Assembly: GCA_905221615.1 (NCBI GenBank)
Contig: CAJNDT010004735.1
Coordinates: 248,001-312,000, forward strand
From: Symbiodinium sp. CCMP2592
Lineage: Eukaryota; Sar; Dinophyceae; Suessiales; Symbiodiniaceae
Reading direction: 5' to 3'
DNA length: 64,000 nt
Positions within the stretch are counted from its first letter, which is position 1; every line of letters begins with the position of its first letter. A model generated the notes under the pieces. The model ran no database searches, was not told where the DNA came from, and saw nothing but the letters and a program-made list of their open reading frames with translations. The translations under genes and the position numbers were made by a program. Positions 48,589 to 61,120 of the stretch are shown one piece after another.

Positions 48589-49175
48589 GCTCCTCGACAC
48601 TTCTCTGCTTTCCAGTTTCTCCCTTTGTCTTTATCGTAGGAGCTGTCATTTCACGCACCATCATCCGTTTTTCCGTGGTTTCCAGCTTTCGCAGGCAGTG
48701 ACGGCTTCAGAGGCCTCAATGCAGGAGCCTTAGCAATGCCACCCTGACGGATTGACCTCGAGAGCATAGATGGAGTCCGGAGTGCTTCGCTTTTATGGCT
48801 CAAGCTTTTCGCTTGGCCTTTGCAGCCATGCAGTGCCTGATGCGCCCCAGCTGAAGGGCCGAGGCCATTCAAAGCACTCTGCTTGAAAGCTGCGAAGAGA
48901 AGGCTCGTGTGATTCGCAAGTTTGTAGCCATGTGGGCCTCGCATCTCCTCTGTCTGGCTTGCACCGCCTCGGCCGTGCATGTCGCGTTTATTGCGCCGCC
49001 AGCATCCCACTATGCGCCGCTGGCACCTGATTTGGCGGATTGTCGAATATACGATCTGCTTATAATAAAGGAGAAAAAAGACGCACACTGGGCTCAACCG
49101 TCGAAAGTTAGAGATCATCAGAACGAGGATAAGGATAACGTTGATGTTGAGGACAACACATTTGACTTGACAACA

Positions 49176-49574
<399 letters not shown>

Positions 49575-49656
49575 CCTAATGTACAGACAAAAAGCAGATA
49601 TATGGGTTGACGGGGCTGCAGTTTTTGTTTGTACCTTGTTGTTGTTGATGATGGCG

Positions 49657-50800: not shown

Positions 50801-50890
50801 AGACGCAGCAAATACCGGCGCCACCGAGGTTTTCGGCCTTTGAAGTCTATGAAATGCTGTAAAAACCAATGCAATCGGCATGCGCACGGC

Positions 50891-50913
50891 GCGCGTTTAC
50901 GTCATGTCGGAGC
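50891..50913 (-). repeat. Right terminal inverted repeat
   Basis: Exact 23 bp reverse complement of 49657-49679. It abuts the (GTT)n tract at 50914-50948. Confidence 0.9.
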
Positions 50914-50914
50914 G

Positions 50915-50948
<34 letters not shown>
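50914..50948. repeat. (GTT)n tract before the LINE
   Basis: Pure GTT triplets between the right end of the foldback element and the presumed 5' end of the LINE. The same triplet ends the LINE at 57022-57066. The pair could be a split target microsatellite or the tail of an earlier insertion. Confidence 0.95.
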
Positions 50949-51154
50949 AGCCGCTATGGATCACAGCAGGCTGTATAGCTTTGCTAACAAGGCTCCGGGT
51001 ACCAACGCTAGAGGCTCGCAACGACCCCTTCTGCGAAGCTTAAGGGACTGTCCTCTCACTGAGCCATAGCTATCCCTGGAGTCACGTGTCGCTGTGATCT
51101 ACCGGGTCCCAATTCCCGGGCCTCTGTCTGCAGTTATACAACATTGGCATGAGG

Positions 51155-51209
51155 TAAGCGGTAGTGGTTTTCACCTTTTCCGCAGGGTGAAAGGAGTCGG
51201 TTCGAGTTC
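51155..51209 (+). promoter_or_regulatory. tRNA-like A and B boxes in the LINE leader
   Basis: TAAGCGGTAGTGG at 51155-51167 resembles an RNA polymerase III A box. GGTTCGAGTTC at 51199-51209 matches the B-box consensus GGTTCGANNCC at all but one base. They are 31 bp apart, as in tRNA genes. Between them, TTTCACC and GGTGAAA (51169-51192) can pair as a 7 bp anticodon-arm-like stem. The acceptor and T stems do not pair well, so this is tRNA-derived at most. It could give an internal promoter or be a relic of a fused SINE head. Confidence 0.45.
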
Positions 51210-51247
51210 TCTCTTTCCGGCGAAACTAGCGGACGGCGCAATCGCCA

Positions 51248-51391
51248 ATGCACCAGCATTCATTTGAGAGCATTCGCAAGAAGGCCTTTCGCAAGGCTTG
51301 CAATAAGGTTCATAGAACACAAGAAAGCATCCCGTACCGGAATGGTACGTTGACGCCTGAACATCTGCGTCGCAGTGGACTCACCCCCCCC
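51248..51391 (+). CDS. LINE ORF, N-terminal segment
   Basis: ATG 51248 opens a basic helical peptide (FESIRKKAFRKACNKVHRTQ then ESIPYRNGTLTPEHLRR). It is followed by a proline-rich part encoded by C runs. The endonuclease frame has no ATG before its first motif and shifts by one base relative to this frame in the C8 run at 51384-51391. The likely native start of the element protein is therefore here, with a one-base change in the C run. Confidence 0.55.
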
Positions 51392-53037
51392 TCCCCTCCC
51401 CCCTCCCAGTGCAGCCTAGCTCCACGATTTCTCCTTCAGGTCCCTCAGGTTTCTCCGCCAGTTTCCGCTCGCGCCCGAGAGGCGGTCGTGCCAGCAAGTC
51501 TCTTCGTGTTCTTTCCTGGAATGCAGGGCACCTTGGCATGCAACAATGGGCAGAAGTGAAGACATGGCTTCGCACGGAGGCCAAGTCAGTCTGTGACATT
51601 CTTGTCCTTCAGGAAACCCACTGGAGTGAGACAGCAGAATTTGATGTCGAAGGCTGGCACTGCGTAAGCTCCGCCACAAAAGGGGCTGCTCGAGCACCTA
51701 AAGGTAAAGCCACTTCAGGGCAACGCCCCAAGCAAGGCGCTGCCACGCAGCCGGCTGTTCACGACACAAGCCGAGCGGACGGCGTCATGGTTCTTCTCTC
51801 TCCGCAGATAGACAAGCAGAAGATAAGATGGCGCGAGCAACGCCGGGGAAGGCTCATTCAGGTCATCTTCCCGTGGCTTGGGGCTCGTGTGCATGTACTA
51901 GCGGTTTACCAACATGCCTGGTCTTCTAAGAAGACTCCACAGCAGAACAAGGATGACCGCTCACACCTGCTCCGCGATCTGTCGGCTGCGATACGGGCCA
52001 TTCCAGCGCGAGATACTTTTCTCTTGGCAGGAGACTTTAATGCTCGACTGACCCCGCAGGAGGGTCTGGTAGGTCAGTGTAGCACCAAGCCAGAGCAAAC
52101 TCAGATGCAGGATGAATCGTTCCAAGCCTTAGTCTCCTCCCATCGGTTGGTAGCTCTTAACACATGGTCTAGTGGTGCAGGTCACACTTTCTTCCTGAAT
52201 GGTCAGGGATCACAAATTGACTTCCTGCTCACTTCAGAAGCCTCGGCCAAGGGCCTGGCAAAGCAGTCTCGGCCGTGCAAGGATCTTCAGCTCGGCAAAT
52301 GGAAGAGGGGCGGCCACCTTCCAGTCTTGGCTCAACTCAGACCCACCCAGCACTGGAATCTGCCAAAGCCTACTTGTCCTTCCACGACCTTTCATAAGGA
52401 AGCTCTAGAGACGGCTGTCCGTTCAGGTCTGCCAATAGCCGGTCGCATGCAAGACTGGGTGGGCCAGCGTCTGTCCTCTCGGACTCACACGCCTGATGAA
52501 GTTAATCAGGTACTGCTGGAGGCCTCTGCACTGTTTTTCCCCAAACCACGGCCTCAGCAAGCTCCCGAAACTGCTCAGCACCGTGTGACGCTGCGAATGT
52601 GGAGTCGAGTCGCCCATATTCGTTCTTTGCATGAGGACTCCATAACCACCTTATCCGACCTAGATCAGTCTTTGGAGGACCTGAATCGATGGCATAAGCA
52701 GGCTCTCTACTTAGCCAAGAAGGAACGACACCGAGCTTTCCAGGCTGAGGTCGATGAGGCGTGTGCCAGACACGATTCCTACATCGCACATAAGACCTTA
52801 AAGAAGCTCCGACCTTGGGAACCCCAAACTAAGGCACAGCTTCAGGGACCGGATGGTCTGCTGTTGGACTCTACCTCTGAGCTCCGCCTGCTTAGAGACC
52901 ACGTGGAACAGGTCTTTGCCAGACATCCGCCACTCGCACACCAGGTGGACTCGCTGCCGGAAATCCCGGCTGGTCTGCTGGCTCTGCTCCGGCGGCTGCC
53001 TGGCGGCTCTGCTCGGCGGCTGCGGGAGAGGCGCTAG
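51361..53037 (+). CDS. LINE endonuclease (APE/EEP-type)
   Basis: The frame is open from 51361 to the stop at 53035-53037. It has the exonuclease-endonuclease-phosphatase motifs in order: LSWNAGHLG (Asn), LVLQETHW (Glu), GRLIQVIFPWLG, LLAGDFNARL (Asp/Asn), SQIDFLL (Asp) and GGHLPVLAQL (His). All main catalytic positions are present. The C-terminal third (from about residue 320) is a helical linker with many charged residues that normally leads into the RT. The frame ends early because of a one-base difference between two tandem copies of GGCTCTGCTC-GGCGGCTGC at 52980-52999 and 53005-53023. The enzyme nicks target DNA to prime reverse transcription. Confidence 0.9.
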   Translation, partial: TSASQWTHPPLPSPLPVQPSSTISPSGPSGFSASFRSRPRGGRASKSLRVLSWNAGHLGMQQWAEVKTWLRTEAKSVCDILVLQETHWSETAEFDVEGWHCVSSATKGAARAPKGKATSGQRPKQGAATQPAVHDTSRADGVMVLLSPQIDKQKIRWREQRRGRLIQVIFPWLGARVHVLAVYQHAWSSKKTPQQNKDDRSHLLRDLSAAIRAIPARDTFLLAGDFNARLTPQEGLVGQCSTKPEQTQMQDESFQALVSSHRLVALNTWSSGAGHTFFLNGQGSQIDFLLTSEASAKGLAKQSRPCKDLQLGKWKRGGHLPVLAQLRPTQHWNLPKPTCPSTTFHKEALETAVRSGLPIAGRMQDWVGQRLSSRTHTPDEVNQVLLEASALFFPKPRPQQAPETAQHRVTLRMWSRVAHIRSLHEDSITTLSDLDQSLEDLNRWHKQALYLAKKERHRAFQAEVDEACARHDSYIAHKTLKKLRPWEPQTKAQLQGPDGLLLDSTSELRLLRDHVEQVFARHPPLAHQVDSLPEIPAGLLALLRRLPGGSARRLRERR

Positions 53038-53069
53038 CAGCATCGCTGCAATCTCGGGGGCAACGCCCA

Positions 53070-54512
53070 TTGCCGGCTGCTGAGGTACTTCAGCCGCCCT
53101 TAAAGGATGCTGACTTGTGTTTTATCCCAAAGCCTAACAAGCCGGCCACGAAGCCTGGCAATCTACGTCCCCTCGGCATCATTCGACCAGACGGCAAGGG
53201 CCTGGCGGGGGCTTGTAGAGATCAGCTGTCTCCCTACACGGCTGACTATCTTCGGGGTCTCCCACAATTTGCCTACCAGCCACATCGCGGTCTTTCAGAT
53301 GCCTTGAGCAGGGTCGTTGGTCATGTCACTCAGGTACGCAATAACTGCCAGGAGGCCCGACGAACCAGGCATCAGCTTCACTCGGGACGAACTCGTCCCC
53401 AGCTAGTAGGTGGCATCTGCTTTGCACTAGACTTGTCACAAGCCTTTGACATGGTGAGCAGAACAGACTTGCTTAGCACACTGCAGGAAGCGGGAGTCCC
53501 GCAAGACCTCATTGACCTAGTTGCCTCATTGCATGCTGGCAGTGCTTACACGTTTCGCACCCAGGGTGAAGAGGACACGGTCCAGTCCACTGCGGGCATT
53601 AAACAGGGGTGTAAGCTTGCCCCCACACTTTTTTCCATGCTTACGGGCACCATCTTCCGGGAGCTCATAGCTCTTGTTGGGGTTCGAGCCGTGGTGGACT
53701 ACCTCACGGGCTACGCAGATGACCTTACGGTTCACCGTGACATCCACTCAATGGAGGACCTGGATCGCGCTCATGCTCTGATTGAGCAATTGTTGCAGTT
53801 GGTCCGTCGCCATGGATTTGCTGTCAACGGTGCAAAATGCACTGTTATGGTCAAACTCGAGGGCCAACAGGCGCAACGCGCCATCTCCAAGCACACTTAT
53901 TGGCGCACCGCGCCTGACGGAACCCGCCATAAGATGTGGAGACTGGGAGAGTCCAAGTCTCACGAGGGCTTTCCGCTGGTGACGTCCTTTAAGTATCTCG
54001 GCGTCATGCTCTCCTACTCCAACTTCGAGAAGGCTACTCTCAAGTTCCGGTTGCAGGAGGGCAATGTGAAATTGCAGCAGGTACGCCGCTTCGTTCACAA
54101 CAGACGAACGGCGGGGCCTGCATCGCGGTTGCACATTTGGCATAGCACTGTCTGGGCCACAGTAGCCTCTGGATTGGTGGATGTGGGCTTGACCCTAGAG
54201 ACAGCTAAACTGTTGCGGGCTTGGCACGCTCGCAAAATTCGAGCTGTCCTGAACAAGCCAGCGCACCTGACACACATATCCACGGCTGACCTCTATGCCT
54301 CCCATGAGATCATGGACCCTGTCTGTAAGCTGCAGGCGCGACAGGCCAATCGTGTCAAGCGCTTAGGTGCTCGACGGTGGAAAACTCCTGCGGGGGACAT
54401 CTCTTTAACCCAGCGCGCGCTTCTCCAGGCGGAGGCACTCTCTACTAGTTATGCAGACGTTCTGCAGCAACTTTCTAAGGACACATCACAGCAGGAGGCC
54501 CCCCGACACTGA
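53070..54512 (+). CDS. LINE reverse transcriptase
   Basis: The frame is open upstream of 53070 as well (to about 52980), and 53070 is a TTG, so no true start is implied; it is the continuation of the endonuclease frame after a one-base shift. RT motifs in order: CFIPKPNKP, LRPLGIIRPDGK, FAYQPHRGLSDAL, ICFALDLSQAFDMV (first catalytic Asp), GIKQGCKLAPTLFS, LTGYADDLTVH (YADD box), GFAVNGAKCTVM and TSFKYLGVMLS. Thumb-like and basic helices follow (RQANRVKRLGARRWKTPAG). It stops at 54510-54512, where the frame leaves the zinc-finger frame at a C6 run (54499-54504). Confidence 0.95.
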   Translation: MPAAEVLQPPLKDADLCFIPKPNKPATKPGNLRPLGIIRPDGKGLAGACRDQLSPYTADYLRGLPQFAYQPHRGLSDALSRVVGHVTQVRNNCQEARRTRHQLHSGRTRPQLVGGICFALDLSQAFDMVSRTDLLSTLQEAGVPQDLIDLVASLHAGSAYTFRTQGEEDTVQSTAGIKQGCKLAPTLFSMLTGTIFRELIALVGVRAVVDYLTGYADDLTVHRDIHSMEDLDRAHALIEQLLQLVRRHGFAVNGAKCTVMVKLEGQQAQRAISKHTYWRTAPDGTRHKMWRLGESKSHEGFPLVTSFKYLGVMLSYSNFEKATLKFRLQEGNVKLQQVRRFVHNRRTAGPASRLHIWHSTVWATVASGLVDVGLTLETAKLLRAWHARKIRAVLNKPAHLTHISTADLYASHEIMDPVCKLQARQANRVKRLGARRWKTPAGDISLTQRALLQAEALSTSYADVLQQLSKDTSQQEAPRH

Positions 54513-56088
54513 GGTCGGTTTTCGCACCCACCAGGCCCGCAAGCATCCAGGCTCGGTCATCAGATATGTCCCTCGAGGCTTCTCCCACACCCTCTCTGTA
54601 GGAGGGCTCCCCAAGTGTGCGGCCTGCAACAGGCAATTCCCTCAGATGAAGGGCTTAAAGGACCACTTGCTATCAGGTGCCTGCTCGGAGCCAGCTAGGC
54701 TACAGGAGCTGGATGACGCGGCGCACCCTCCCTTGGATTCGCAGCATCAGCCCAGATTGCATCCCAGGCAGCAGCGCTTGCATGACACTCTGACAACACA
54801 CACGGCTGTGGAGCTCGGACGATCTGATGAGTCTCAGGACCTTATGTCACATTGCTTGCTGTGTGGGTTCTGGACCCCGGACAATACCAAGCTCAAGTCT
54901 CACATCCGGCAGGCCCACAAACCTGAATGGGCGGCTCATGGCGCTACAGCTGCAACTCAGAGCAGCAAATCAGGCCTGACCCTTGTCAAGGGCATGCCTT
55001 GCCCGTGCTGCCGCAAGCCTGTTACGGATAAGAGGCAGCATCCGGCACAATGTCCGATCCTTTTTCAGATTCTGTTTTATGACTTGGTTCATGCACTTTC
55101 CCGCTGCCAGGGCGGACCGTTACGCAGGTACATGCCAGCGGTTGGCACGACACAAGGCAACGCACCCACACGGGACGATACCACCGCTGTTGGAGCAACG
55201 CCCCAGACTCGCCAGGCAACGCCTGCAGGCCCCCTGCCACCGAAGTCAGGGACAGTAGAATCAAAGGACGGCGCGCTCGCTGCTCCTCGCTCGCTGCGCA
55301 ACATCTCCAACTACTGCTATGTTAACTCAACGCTTTCGGCCCTGGTGCCGACGTGCATCTTGCTGGAGCACGGAGGGGCAAGCACCTCCCTCCATCAGGA
55401 AGTGGCTGATTCTGTCTCTGGTTCTCCTTTCACCCTGACTGCCTCTTTCACGCTTCGCCATCTTACTCCCACTTGGCGCTATGATGGCCAACAACAAGAT
55501 GCTTCGGAGTTTCTAGTGGCCTTATTTGCAGGCATTACCGCCTTTCCGATTGCACGACCCTGGGAAGTCAGGGATGTAAACACTACTGAGGTCACCGATG
55601 CGGGAGGTCCGCTCGCTTTGCTGCCAGCTCCAACGACAGGTGGATCCCATGCACTTCAGGAGCTGCTCTCTCGGTGGTCTGGCCAGCCGGTGCACACCGC
55701 CTTTCGAGGGCAGCAACGACTGGTGGTTCTCACAGTGGCGCGATTTGTTGAAGGCCGCAAGCTCAGCTATGCTGTCACTGGTCTGCACCACCCCCTTCAG
55801 CTCTCGCAGTGGGCCCCGACGGGCTCCGTACAACTAGAGAAAGGATGGGTTCAGTCCTGTATCTTCCACATAGGTGACACCCCGCACAGTGGACATTATC
55901 GCTCCCTCTGGAGGAGCAACCCCGATCAACCTTGGCTCAGCACGGACGATGGTCGTCCGTCGGTTCAGGCCTCAGATTCAGATCTCAGGCAGGCACGCCA
56001 CGGCTGCTATGTGCTGTTCGTGCGACTTGGTTCAATACCGCACACAGCGGAGGCTGGCCCTATGCCAGTCCAAGTTTCAGATGATTAA
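54451..56088 (+). CDS. LINE C-terminal part: zinc fingers plus ubiquitin-specific protease domain
   Basis: ATG 54451 is probably not a real start; the frame continues the RT after a one-base shift. The end of one C2H2 finger (EVGFRTHQARKH) is followed by CAACNRQFPQMKGLKDHLLS, then CLLCGFWTPDNTKLKSHIRQ (a C2H2 finger) and CPCCRKPVTDKRQHPAQC (CCHC-like). From about residue 280 a peptidase C19 (USP) domain follows: Cys box NISNYCYVNSTLSAL (Cys codon 55315-55317), GQQQDASEFLVALF (QQD box), His box HIGDTPHSGHYRSLW (His 55894-55896), WLSTDDGRPSVQ (Asp near 55945) and a terminal CYVLFVRLG strand. The triad looks intact; the domain is about 260 residues, shorter than most USPs. It would remove ubiquitin from element or host proteins. 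Confidence 0.88.
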   Translation: MQTFCSNFLRTHHSRRPPDTEVGFRTHQARKHPGSVIRYVPRGFSHTLSVGGLPKCAACNRQFPQMKGLKDHLLSGACSEPARLQELDDAAHPPLDSQHQPRLHPRQQRLHDTLTTHTAVELGRSDESQDLMSHCLLCGFWTPDNTKLKSHIRQAHKPEWAAHGATAATQSSKSGLTLVKGMPCPCCRKPVTDKRQHPAQCPILFQILFYDLVHALSRCQGGPLRRYMPAVGTTQGNAPTRDDTTAVGATPQTRQATPAGPLPPKSGTVESKDGALAAPRSLRNISNYCYVNSTLSALVPTCILLEHGGASTSLHQEVADSVSGSPFTLTASFTLRHLTPTWRYDGQQQDASEFLVALFAGITAFPIARPWEVRDVNTTEVTDAGGPLALLPAPTTGGSHALQELLSRWSGQPVHTAFRGQQRLVVLTVARFVEGRKLSYAVTGLHHPLQLSQWAPTGSVQLEKGWVQSCIFHIGDTPHSGHYRSLWRSNPDQPWLSTDDGRPSVQASDSDLRQARHGCYVLFVRLGSIPHTAEAGPMPVQVSDD

Positions 56089-56365
56089 GCTGAGGGTTCC
56101 CCTGAGGCCAGGGGCCCCTACTTCCCCTTGCAGGAAGGGGGCGACCTACTGGCTCTGTGGGACCGACCTGCCTACACGGCAGGGAGCAGGAACGCTGTTG
56201 TTCAGTTTTGCTGCTCAAGTCGTACAGCTGACGTAGCTCCACTACTCAGCGTTTGTGTGCAATAGCGGCCTATACCTGTCATGCTAGTCGGGCAACGCTC
56301 GCTGCTTTCCCAGAAAGGCAACGCCTGTCAGCAACACAGCTGACCAATGGCTGAAATCGGCTTTA

Positions 56366-56400
56366 CAAACCCCCATTCTCGGCTCGAGAAGGGGGGTTTG
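56366..56400 (+). other. 3' UTR hairpin 1
   Basis: A 35-nt stem-loop: 16-nt arms with one A-G mismatch around a GCT loop, starting CAAACCCCC and ending GGGGGTTTG. It is followed by TCCGAGGCC. It is likely a structure in the LINE RNA, possibly for recognition by its RT. Confidence 0.85.
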
Positions 56401-56426
56401 TCCGAGGCCTAAAAATCAAGGTTTTG

Positions 56427-56461
56427 CAACCCCCCATTCTCGGCTCGAGAATGGGGGGTTG
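56427..56461 (+). other. 3' UTR hairpin 2
   Basis: A perfect 35-nt stem-loop with 16-bp arms around GCT, starting CAACCCCCC and ending GGGGGGTTG, again followed by TCCGAGGCC. It is a near-copy of hairpin 1 with paired changes on both arms. Confidence 0.9.
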
Positions 56462-57021
56462 TCCGAGGCCCCCAAGCCATTGCCTGGCAAGCCTGGCCTC
56501 TGGAGGGGAGTACGCCTCTTACGAATAAGGTTAGCTTATTAGGCCCTTATTAGGCACAGTGTGCTTACCGCCAGGGTGTGCCACATCGTTCACCGATGCA
56601 ATCTGCTTGCCCACAAAAGCGGAGCTGCCTCAGATAACAGCACTAGCAGCCGTTCCACATGCTCATCACCTTTGCGACCTTACGGCCCATCGCCTTTGAT
56701 TGAGAGTGACCATGAGTGGGACGCCACGCAACAGGCACTCGGAGTGACGGTCCCGAGGGGGTACGGCTCATCAATCATCGGTCCGTGGACATGGGACGCC
56801 ATAGTCCACACTGAGGGTGACGGAGGGTTTCTCACCTACGCCTGAGACGCATGAACCGGCTTTTGAGGTAGCTTGTAGGGTGGCTCTCTTCACGGTAGCC
56901 TGTTTCAGCGCTTTCAGGCCCAGGCCCTTAGCATTTCTGCTCTCAGACCTTTGTTCAGGTGCAAAGGCAGTCTCACACGCCCGCAATGAGCAGAGCCCGC
57001 TCGCTCAGCGTCCAATAAAAA

Positions 57022-57025
57022 TTGT

Positions 57026-57066
<41 letters not shown>
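57022..57066. repeat. (TTG)n tail of the LINE
   Basis: TTG triplets with one GAT interruption directly follow CCAATAAAAA. This is the end of the LINE by position. A microsatellite-type tail instead of poly(A) is known in several LINE clades. Confidence 0.85.
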
Positions 57067-57076
57067 CAAAAGCTGA

Positions 57077-57135
57077 AGCAGCAGCAGCTGCTGCTGCTGC
57101 TGCTGCTGCCTGCTGCTGCTGCTGCTGCTGCTGCT
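57077..57135. repeat. CAG/CTG palindromic triplet run
   Basis: AGCAGCAGCAG followed directly by (CTG)n, forming an inverted triplet repeat. It lies just beyond the LINE tail. The open frame across it gives poly-Ala then poly-Cys and is not a gene. Confidence 0.9.
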
Positions 57136-58495
57136 CTTGTTGTTGCTGTTTGACGATGACTGCGGCTACCTACGCAATAATAATTACTTGTGTTTCTTTT
57201 GGCTTGCTCGCATACTTACTTTTTAAAGTCCTGTTAATGACCAGTGAGTTCTTCCTGTGAACAACGCATTCATCAACATGCTTCCAGCCGCCCGATGCCC
57301 AGGTCCATGTTGCCGATTGCCCATGGCCTTCTTGACGAAGACCACATCGTAAGCTTCCTGGCCCACGACGAGACAGTGAGAAAGATAGAGTGCCCGGGCT
57401 GAACTACGAAGCAGGTGTGGCATTTTTGACTTCCTTCTGACATGAGGAAGCATCGACCGCCCCAGACTAGCCGTTGAATGTATTTCCACACATTCGTCAA
57501 GTCCAAACAGAAGTATGCAAATAACTTCTGGCCAAAATGAAGTAAGTAAGCACACCAAAGAGGCAAAATGATATACGTATATGTTTACATTTATATACAT
57601 AGATATGGATGGATGGATGGATGGATGGATGGATAAATGGATAGATAGGTAGATATTAAGCAGTGATAGAAATTACGTGCACATGTAAGCAGCAGCCGCA
57701 GTAGCTTCTTTGTATCATTGATTCGACGGAGCCACGGAGTCGTATTTCTTCTTGTAGTCGTCATCGTCCGTACTAGTAGCAGGAGAGGGAGTGGCAATAG
57801 TGGGGTAATATCGAGCAATACTGCCTCGACGACAGCGATCGCCAACGAGAGGGCGACAACGAAGAGGACCACGACTCATTCGCAACGAAGTATTCCATGA
57901 TGACGACGACACTGCCAGTGGCGACGACGACCGTGACGAGGATGCCGTCCTCGATCAACGAACATGAAAACGAGAGCTGCCACGACTACCTCCTCCTGCT
58001 CTTGCTGTTGAACTTTCACCATGCTCACACCACTCTCACTACTCTCACTACTACTGCTCCGGCAACTGCTATTGCTATTGCCACTGCCACTGCTCCTGCT
58101 ACTCGTACTGCTGCTGCTATGACTGCTGCTACTGCTACTGTATCACTACCGCTACCGCCGCTACCACTGCCGCTATACGATTGCTACACGGTTAGTGCTG
58201 CATGTACTCCTAAGATACAACATGTGACCTCCGCTACCTGATTTTGCTTCCGAACCAGCTAAGGAAACTGGTTCCACAGGCGAAAATGGTCGACATCGGC
58301 CCATCTTCGATGGACCGTGAGAAGGGTGCTGCGGCGGTGAGACTCGCTTCATCAGACTCTTGCGTCTTGTAGTAAAGAAACAACTACAACTTCTTGATGG
58401 TCTGGCACCAGGTCGGAGGGTTCAGGCACATCGATTAAAGCTCTGCAGATTCGATGCAGTCCGCAGTCCTCACAGGAATTGCTTTGACAGCCACG
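57136..58495. other. 1.4 kb, simple repeats and a possible early UGT exon
   Basis: (GGAT)n lies at about 57605-57640 and CTA/CTG/CCA triplet-rich sequence at about 57990-58170. A stretch after a CCACAG acceptor near 58280-58316 (AKMVDIGPSSMDREK) could be an N-terminal exon of the glycosyltransferase downstream, but this is weak. Nothing else is supported. Confidence 0.4.
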
Positions 58496-60335: not shown

Positions 60336-60460
60336 GTGGACGTCAGTTGCACTAGCACGCACTAAGAAGCAGTCAAGCTTGTGACACACACTATGAACGC
60401 TGGCACTGAAGAGTCGGGAATACATAAATGCTGATTGTAGATGCTTCTCATCCCTGCGAG

Positions 60461-61120
60461 GTCCGCTTGTCCAAAGAGCATGCTGCGCTCTTGGTGGAGA
60501 CGTTTAAACAAGGCGGCTTCACTGTTCTATGGGCTTCCAAAGTAAAGCCAGATGTCCCCATCCCAGAGAATGTGCTGGTAACGAAATTTGCACCGCAGCG
60601 CGCGGTCCTTGCTCATCCGGCAGTCTTTGGTTTCCTGTCACATGGTGGCATGAACAGTGTGAACGAAGCTCTTGCCAGTGGTAAGCCCTTGGCAATCATG
60701 CCTTTCTTCGCAGATCAGATGACGGTGGCTGTGGTGCACAGAGACCTCGGGGTTGCTGTCATCTTGGACAAGCATGCAGCCACTCCAACAACTTCTGCAG
60801 CGGCGATCCGCAAGATTGCGACAGAGCCGTTCCGCCGTCGATCCCTGGAGATCAAAGAGCTGAATGAACAGCGTCGAGACATGTCGAGGGCAGTCCAAGT
60901 CATCGTGAACCAGGCGACAGGAAAGTTCTACATGCACATCCCGCCATGCCCGAGCCTTTGGATCCGAGCGATGCCACTCTTCGTCACCCTTCTCTTCTTT
61001 ACGTTTTGCTGCAACTTCTGCTGTTGCATCAGCGTGCGCGTGCACGCTCCATGCTGGTGGTGCTGCCGGGGGAGGTCCGTCCGACCCAATCCGGTTAGCG
61101 GTAAAGAGAAACGTCAATAG
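60461..61120 (+). CDS. UDP-glycosyltransferase C-terminal exon with membrane anchor
   Basis: It reads VRLSKEHAALLVETFKQGGF, then TVLWASKVKP, VLVTKFAPQRAVLAHPAVFG and FLSHGGMNSVNEALASGKPL, then AIMPFFADQMTVAV. This is the nucleotide-sugar-binding signature of family 1 glycosyltransferases (HPAVxxFxSHGGxNSxxEAL, then GxPxxxxPxxxDQ), with the usual His, Gly, Glu and Asp-Gln. The enzyme transfers a sugar from a UDP-sugar to a small lipophilic acceptor. After a helical spacer come a hydrophobic segment (AMPLFVTLLFFTFCCNFCCC) and a basic, Cys-rich tail ending KEKRQ. This gives the single-pass ER anchor layout of animal UGTs. The stop is at 61118-61120. The open frame from 60428 includes 33 bases of intron. 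Confidence 0.88.
   Translation, partial: VRLSKEHAALLVETFKQGGFTVLWASKVKPDVPIPENVLVTKFAPQRAVLAHPAVFGFLSHGGMNSVNEALASGKPLAIMPFFADQMTVAVVHRDLGVAVILDKHAATPTTSAAAIRKIATEPFRRRSLEIKELNEQRRDMSRAVQVIVNQATGKFYMHIPPCPSLWIRAMPLFVTLLFFTFCCNFCCCISVRVHAPCWWCCRGRSVRPNPVSGKEKRQ

Follow-up and report, generated by a model that had tools for sequence, protein, structure and literature searches.

Whether a retrotransposon can carry a ubiquitin-specific protease (USP) of its own, or comes to lie beside one by an accident of insertion or assembly, is the question raised by a long interspersed nuclear element (LINE) within a 64,000-nt stretch of DNA (G000:C4734:248001-312000, here called the window) from the 1.098-Gb genome of the coral-reef alga Symbiodinium sp. 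CCMP2592, a strain named S. tridacnidorum in passages of PMC8045281. The original prediction had read a peptidase C19 domain downstream of the reverse transcriptase (RT) and zinc fingers of this LINE and had proposed that the element encodes its own deubiquitinase. Both profile matching and the predicted fold identify the domain as a USP, with its catalytic residues in place. It has been kept by purifying selection across three families of the element and inherited together with the RT/zinc-finger part.

The USP domain and the element that carries it

The four boxes on which the prediction rested, NYCYVNS, QQQDASEFL, PHSGHYRS and STDDG, are all present in the translation of positions 54451-56088, and the Pfam profile PF00443 (UCH) matches 54409-56085 significantly (E 4e-7, 30.4 bits against a cut-off of 23.9). 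The region 54451-56088 does hold the domain, but position 54451 is simply the first ATG downstream of a break in the frame, and the domain proper spans about 55276-56034. The Cys, oxyanion Asn, QQD, His and Asp residues (Table 1) correspond to those with catalytic roles in USPs. In an alignment of 16 sequences that includes distant homologues, the Cys, the oxyanion Asn and the QQD box are kept in all 16, across lineages sharing 27-36% identity in the USP, and the His and Asp boxes are kept in the intact sequences. As PF00443 matches 11 of these 16 members and the region recurs in at least 80 places in the genome (see below), the resemblance is not due to chance. A search of the PDB with the single sequence gave weak matches (best E 0.024, to USP14); with a 16-sequence profile, USP46 was matched at E 5.8e-9. 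Structure prediction, which had been suggested as a check, returned a model with the thumb-palm-finger fold of a USP, and the fold matches of this model include the spliceosomal chains 6qw6_U and 4msx, which we take to be USP-like splicing factors.

In the window, the endonuclease (EN), RVT_1 and UCH matches sit in three successive plus-strand open reading frames (ORFs), and the USP had been assigned to a frame separate from that of the RT. This is true of the window but is a defect of that copy: it is 99.62% identical to the family A copy L009 but has lost 46 nt and 35 nt in two deletions, and single nucleotides elsewhere, so that the USP is seen in another frame from the RT, whereas intact copies encode EN, RT, zinc fingers and USP in a single frame. 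EN, RT and UCH are likewise found in one intact protein in P0002, P0003 and P0004, each above its Pfam cut-off (26.3-27.6 bits for UCH). Among 20 copies fetched from the genome, a long open frame containing the QQD box is present in 18, and in 15 the reading frame runs unbroken from MHQHSF through the whole USP (1629-1642 aa). Nine other intact copies of family A are 99.53-99.95% identical to L009, and the EN and RT stretches of L009 show zero substitutions against L016 and L017; this near-identity indicates that the family has been active recently, although L013 and L015 have identical flanks and are perhaps not independent copies.

The presence of EN and RT in one ORF identifies an APE-type LINE (a non-LTR retrotransposon), and the RT part of L009 finds R2-type proteins and LINE-1 ORF2p in the PDB. 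A precise 3' end, a short tail and many dispersed copies are also as in a LINE, and no long terminal direct repeat lies within 50850-57400, trinucleotide arrays aside. Junctions were compared in 21 copies: the window copy, L024, L025 and the 18 of the fetched set that have the USP frame. The exact 5' mark is missing from L010 and L014. Every one of the 19 distinct 5' junctions found has at least five TTG in the 45 nt upstream, a number reached in 1.06% of 5000 random 45-mers from the window; the same holds for the 45 nt that follow 15 of 17 distinct 3' ends, L014 and L017 having four and three, respectively. Since both flanks are TTG-type repeats, a target-site duplication cannot be distinguished from them. 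The window copy is a defunct member of an APE-type LINE family that was recently active and targets microsatellites.

Selection, copy number and a second lineage

Ratios of non-synonymous to synonymous substitution (dN/dS) were calculated by the pairwise Nei-Gojobori method between families A (L009), B (L019) and C (L023). For the USP they were 0.106, 0.111 and 0.073 (dS 1.2-2.4), and for the RT 0.040 and 0.037, the third pair being saturated; the linker between zinc fingers and USP gave 0.30, 0.52 and 0.45. The low values between families show that the USP is constrained, less so than the RT.

The RT and USP are shared by many copies, as the original prediction required: the region is found in at least 80 places in the genome (81 rows; best 80 of 2629 first-look candidates). 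Copies ending after the zinc fingers, which would have pointed to a single insertion into a host gene, were not found as a class in a genome search with the RT tail and zinc fingers alone, which gave at least 110 matches (best 110 of 2370 candidates). Our tally covers the 35 best rows, all at 99-100% identity over at least 369 of 371 residues. A match covering the USP to residue 518 or beyond was present in 28; in four (C5197:15000, C5329, C1837 and C2891:363625) the match is cut inside the USP, ending at residues 332-476, and three (C5285, C644 and C5230) have no USP match among the matches listed (best 80 candidates). Some of the tallied copies lie in implausibly long frames, possibly with runs of N.

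A second lineage was recovered when the genome was searched with P0017, at least 69 places matching its zinc fingers and USP at 48-49% identity (best 69 of 3181 first-look candidates). All but one of the 69 are free of internal stops, and 42 lie in open frames of 1642-1698 aa. The USP of this lineage scores 46.6 bits against UCH; read directly in L039, it shows VNSGNTCYVNAT, QQDASEF, SGHYRSFW and GDD (UCH E 4.3e-12). At the three 5' junctions seen (L036-L038; C975, C63 and C5329) the elements start with TAGCCGCCACGG, resembling the TAGCCGCTATGG of family A, and have TAG/AGT-type repeats upstream and not TTG; in L036 the end of one element is followed by TAG repeats and then by the start of the next. 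The two lineages may thus differ in trinucleotide target, related USP-bearing LINEs using different repeats, although three junctions make a small sample.

Homologues of the window protein in other records number at least 24 (32-67% identity; best 7995 candidates scored). Five of them (P0015, P0016, P0017, P0019 and P0024) combine zinc fingers and at least part of a USP with the RT or its tail in one protein, and several others, such as P0020, P0026 and P0028, are fragments or chimeric predictions. When residues 1365-1635 of the intact ORF served as the query, no protein of similar total length was found at E <= 0.01 among 4879 candidates. Identity in the zinc-finger region and in the USP rises together (r = 0.978 over 36 non-independent pairs from nine sequences; 15 were tried and six dropped because the zinc-finger stretch was absent or below the length limit). 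The simplest reading of these sequences is one old fusion with vertical inheritance since. A viral origin was sought with alignment A2 in viral_contigs, to which the search was confined, and 78 pattern hits there yielded no relatives. The USP has stayed intact across many copies and distant relatives, and so probably aids the element's survival in its host.

That a LINE inserted once beside a host USP gene, or that the assembly is chimeric, would accord with the differing frames of RT and USP in the window taken by itself. Against this stand the 80 or more places occupied by the family, the second lineage, and homologous proteins such as P0024 and P0015 in which RT or RT tail and USP are fused; the likelihood of such a one-off event is practically nil, and we regard it as ruled out.

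Matches to PF00443 itself are widespread in the genome, with at least 148 above the cut-off (best 149 of 1371 candidates; the window copy is not included). Many are repeated, and their open frames are very long (about 1600 to 3400 aa), examples being C994 (six rows), C1987 (three), C2844 (four), C1007, C3768 and C1447. In a 481-nt piece upstream of the C1007 match no similarity to RT was found (best tblastn E 0.083), and we therefore do not claim the other long frames with PF00443 as LINEs.

Table 1. Features of the element in the window, with the longer sister elements
Feature	Position	Strand	Basis or remark
(TTG)n microsatellite, insertion target	50914..50948	+	directly 5' of element
Whole LINE copy, family A short form, frame-broken, 6070 nt	50949..57018	+	5' start common to 19/21 copies
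5' untranslated region	50949..51247	+	ORF start by homology is ATG 51248 (MHQHSF)
APE-type endonuclease domain PF03372	51511..52242	+	Pfam E 1.5e-13
Reverse transcriptase PF00078 (RVT_1) with YADD	53124..54008	+	Pfam E 4.7e-24
Zinc finger 2, CAAC...HLLSGAC	54613..54690	+	sequence reading; zinc-finger Pfam matches weak
Zinc finger 3, C2H2 (CLLCGFW...HIRQAH)	54850..54918	+	sequence reading
Zinc-binding motif CPCC...H...C	55000..55053	+	sequence reading
Fast-evolving linker, zinc fingers to USP	55054..55275	+	dN/dS 0.30-0.52; predicted local distance difference test (pLDDT) mostly <50
USP (peptidase C19) domain	55276..56034	+	boxes, Pfam, predicted fold
USP oxyanion Asn	55300-55302	+	
USP Cys	55315-55317	+	
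USP QQD	55492-55500	+	
USP His	55894-55896	+	
USP Asp box	55945-55950	+	
3' untranslated region, end AATAA(A)n	56089..57018	+	holds two 61-nt direct repeats
(TTG)n-rich tract	57019..57064	+	directly 3' of element
Sister elements of about 14 kb, five further ORFs after USP ORF	G000:C997:20350-34522		L023, L030, L035; also C272, C3135, C600, C491, C5015

Zinc finger 1 is truncated in the window copy. The two repeats of the 3' untranslated region (56359-56480) each form a strong hairpin (56365-56401 and 56427-56461) around CTCGGCTCGAG, possibly a recognition structure for the RT; an Rfam scan gave only matches below the gathering scores, mostly in the trinucleotide tract. The word GGCAACGCC occurs five times in the window against 0.57 expected, four of them within the element (51719, 53059, 55215 and 56317), and by eye is also frequent in the 14-kb forms; in its core GGC can pair with GCC, with just 0-2 further outer pairs. 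Elsewhere in the window, 49108-49610 (about 500 nt) consists almost entirely of trinucleotide microsatellite, whose six frames read poly-Q/N/T/V/L/C, and a plus-strand ORF at 60428-60900 appears by eye to be the C-terminal half of a UDP-glucuronosyl/glucosyltransferase (FAPQRAVLAHPAVFGFLSHGGMNSVNEALASGKPLAIMPFFADQ).

Role of the USP and competing explanations

Our working hypothesis, to which we give a probability of about 0.6, is that the USP is an active deubiquitinase working in cis, as the last part of a single EN-RT-zinc finger-USP protein, and that it shields the element's protein or ribonucleoprotein (RNP). The zinc fingers and RT would hold the element protein on its own RNA and on the target DNA, where the tethered USP would strip ubiquitin from that protein or RNP, and perhaps also from proteins where the DNA is nicked; the complex might in this way escape the host ubiquitin-proteasome system until target-primed reverse transcription is complete. 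A C-terminal tether through a fast-evolving linker, together with held catalytic residues, fits an enzyme that is brought to the RNP without rigid placement. Catalysis on ubiquitin, action in cis and RNP protection are inferred, the protective role by analogy. Several observations weigh against the hypothesis in addition to its dependence on analogy. The UCH scores of families A-C are modest (26-30 bits), and the structural model has a mean pLDDT of 69, the other four models averaging 41-51. Zinc-binding CXXC pairs, which are common but not universal in USP fingers, were sought within the USP part and found in none of 15 copies, so that specificity for ubiquitin and for ubiquitin-like modifiers (UBLs) are both possible. 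The RT is also more tightly constrained than the USP (0.04 against 0.07-0.11), and the comparison of L019 with L021, both of family B, gives a dN/dS of 0.24 for the USP and 1.04 for the linker.

We place cis-protection ahead of three other roles. The USP might act in trans on host chromatin or repair proteins at the insertion site, such as ubiquitinated histones or repair factors; the general fold match does not single out a substrate and is equally silent on this one, and dinoflagellate chromatin has been described as histone-poor, so that we consider such action unlikely. The missing CXXC pairs and the matches to 6qw6_U and 4msx would also suit a non-catalytic binder of ubiquitin or UBLs, or an enzyme acting on SUMO-like modifiers, comparable to USPL1 or the splicing USP-like proteins. 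We hold this to be distinctly unlikely, given that the Cys, oxyanion Asn and QQD survive without exception, and the His and Asp boxes in intact sequences, at such low identity between lineages. Processing of the element's polyprotein, perhaps at RPRGG|R just before the endonuclease, is suggested by SRPRGGR(A/S)SK, a motif resembling the ubiquitin tail (RGG|R) that by eye is present in P0002, P0003 and P0004, about 10 residues before the EN match, after an otherwise variable N-terminal stretch. USPs recognise the folded body of ubiquitin, however, and no ubiquitin fold was found in the ORF by Pfam at E <= 0.001; the motif may instead belong to the EN border or represent a basic patch, and self-processing seems to us very improbable.

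Sister elements, known systems and significance

Families B and C run on past the USP ORF to 14,165 (C272), 14,173 (C3135) and 13,772 nt (C600) and about 14.17 kb (C997); with five further ORFs, these elements hold far more genes than a typical LINE. In family C, ORF2 (222 aa) has no Pfam match above the cut-off and ORF3 (101 aa) no Pfam match. ORF4 (598 aa) matches Pkinase below the cut-off (E 1.9e-5; 1.5e-6 in family B), PHROGs and NCBIfam adding weak kinase matches alone, and the first part of ORF5 (1017 aa in family C; L029:2676-5717) matches Gly_transf_sug, also below the cut-off (E 0.0012). The sole Pfam match of ORF6 (297 aa in family C; L033:7384-8493 and L035:2288-3178) is to Tet_JBP in two family B copies, far below the cut-off (E 0.13 and 0.038); by eye it shows an HRD...H...R pattern, a PDB sequence search gave nothing credible (best E 0.34), and as its predicted structure has a mean pLDDT of 31.9 the TET/JBP assignment is a weak reading. 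Between families B and C, dN/dS is 0.056 for ORF2, 0.134 for ORF4, 0.127 for ORF5 (787 codons) and 0.126 for ORF6, ORF3 being saturated; four of the five extra ORFs are therefore under purifying selection, and in several family B copies the cargo ORFs are broken.

By eye, families A, B and C share a similar stretch at the end of the 3' region, just ahead of the TTG tail, and because of this common end family A looks like a form that has lost about 8 kb. In BLAST comparisons of the family A 3' region with L029, which holds a run of N, and L030, which stops short of the element end, only the first 147-156 nt and the TTG repeats match. In P0027, from another record, the USP by eye runs into ORF4-like sequence, so the gene order may be old. 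Dinoflagellates are known for 5-hydroxymethyluracil. One could imagine a 14-kb, six-gene parent that combined the deubiquitinase with a DNA-modification kit, in which a TET/JBP-like thymine hydroxylase (ORF6) and a glycosyltransferase (ORF5), as in the two-step base J pathway, together with the ORF4 kinase, would mark T-rich microsatellite targets or the element's own copies, the short form being a streamlined derivative; we consider this doubtful. If true, the 14-kb element could be a source of host T-modifying enzymes. TET/JBP dioxygenases are known from mobile elements in fungi, but these are DNA transposons (PMC12730594), and ORF6 has only its sub-threshold match.

Proteases of this general kind have precedents in LINEs. 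According to sections of PMC4640811, the non-LTR retrotransposons NeSL and Utopia-1_TSP encode an Ulp1-like protease, and like the present element they combine a ubiquitin/UBL-type cysteine protease with target-specific insertion; theirs, however, is N-terminal, in nematode elements with a restriction-like endonuclease, whereas here a USP-type protease is C-terminal in an APE-type dinoflagellate element. Profiles for a restriction-like endonuclease or Ulp1-type protease were not found at E <= 0.001, APE-type EN and UCH being matched instead. SymbioLINE-Dnmt, which excerpts of PMC5890265 describe as old, active and under purifying selection, is likewise a Symbiodinium LINE with PF03372, RVT_1 and a captured enzyme, but what it captured is a DNA methyltransferase, encoded by an ORF of its own further upstream, and the main text of PMC5890265 uses neither the word ubiquitin nor the word protease. 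In family A only about 300 nt precede the ORF start, which does not fit an upstream ORF, and no Pfam profile for a DNA methyltransferase was found in P0002-P0004 or the further ORFs scanned. No report of a USP in a LINE was among the matches listed from open-licence PMC, subscription papers and Repbase reports lying outside this coverage. Within that coverage, what is new here is the APE-type LINE with a C-terminal USP, ubiquitin/UBL-type proteases in LINEs being already known. Dualen/RandI and other LINEs carry deubiquitinase-type cysteine proteases of the OTU rather than the USP fold.

Symbiodiniaceae LINEs have been summarised, in passages of PMC8045281, as highly divergent remnants; the recently active family A qualifies that summary, which describes the bulk of LINEs. 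The USP joins Ulp1-like and OTU proteases among the ubiquitin/UBL proteases of LINEs, suggesting that LINEs have repeatedly been selected to counter or exploit the ubiquitin system. The near-identical intact copies and two lineages make it testable whether a retroelement needs its own deubiquitinase to retrotranspose.

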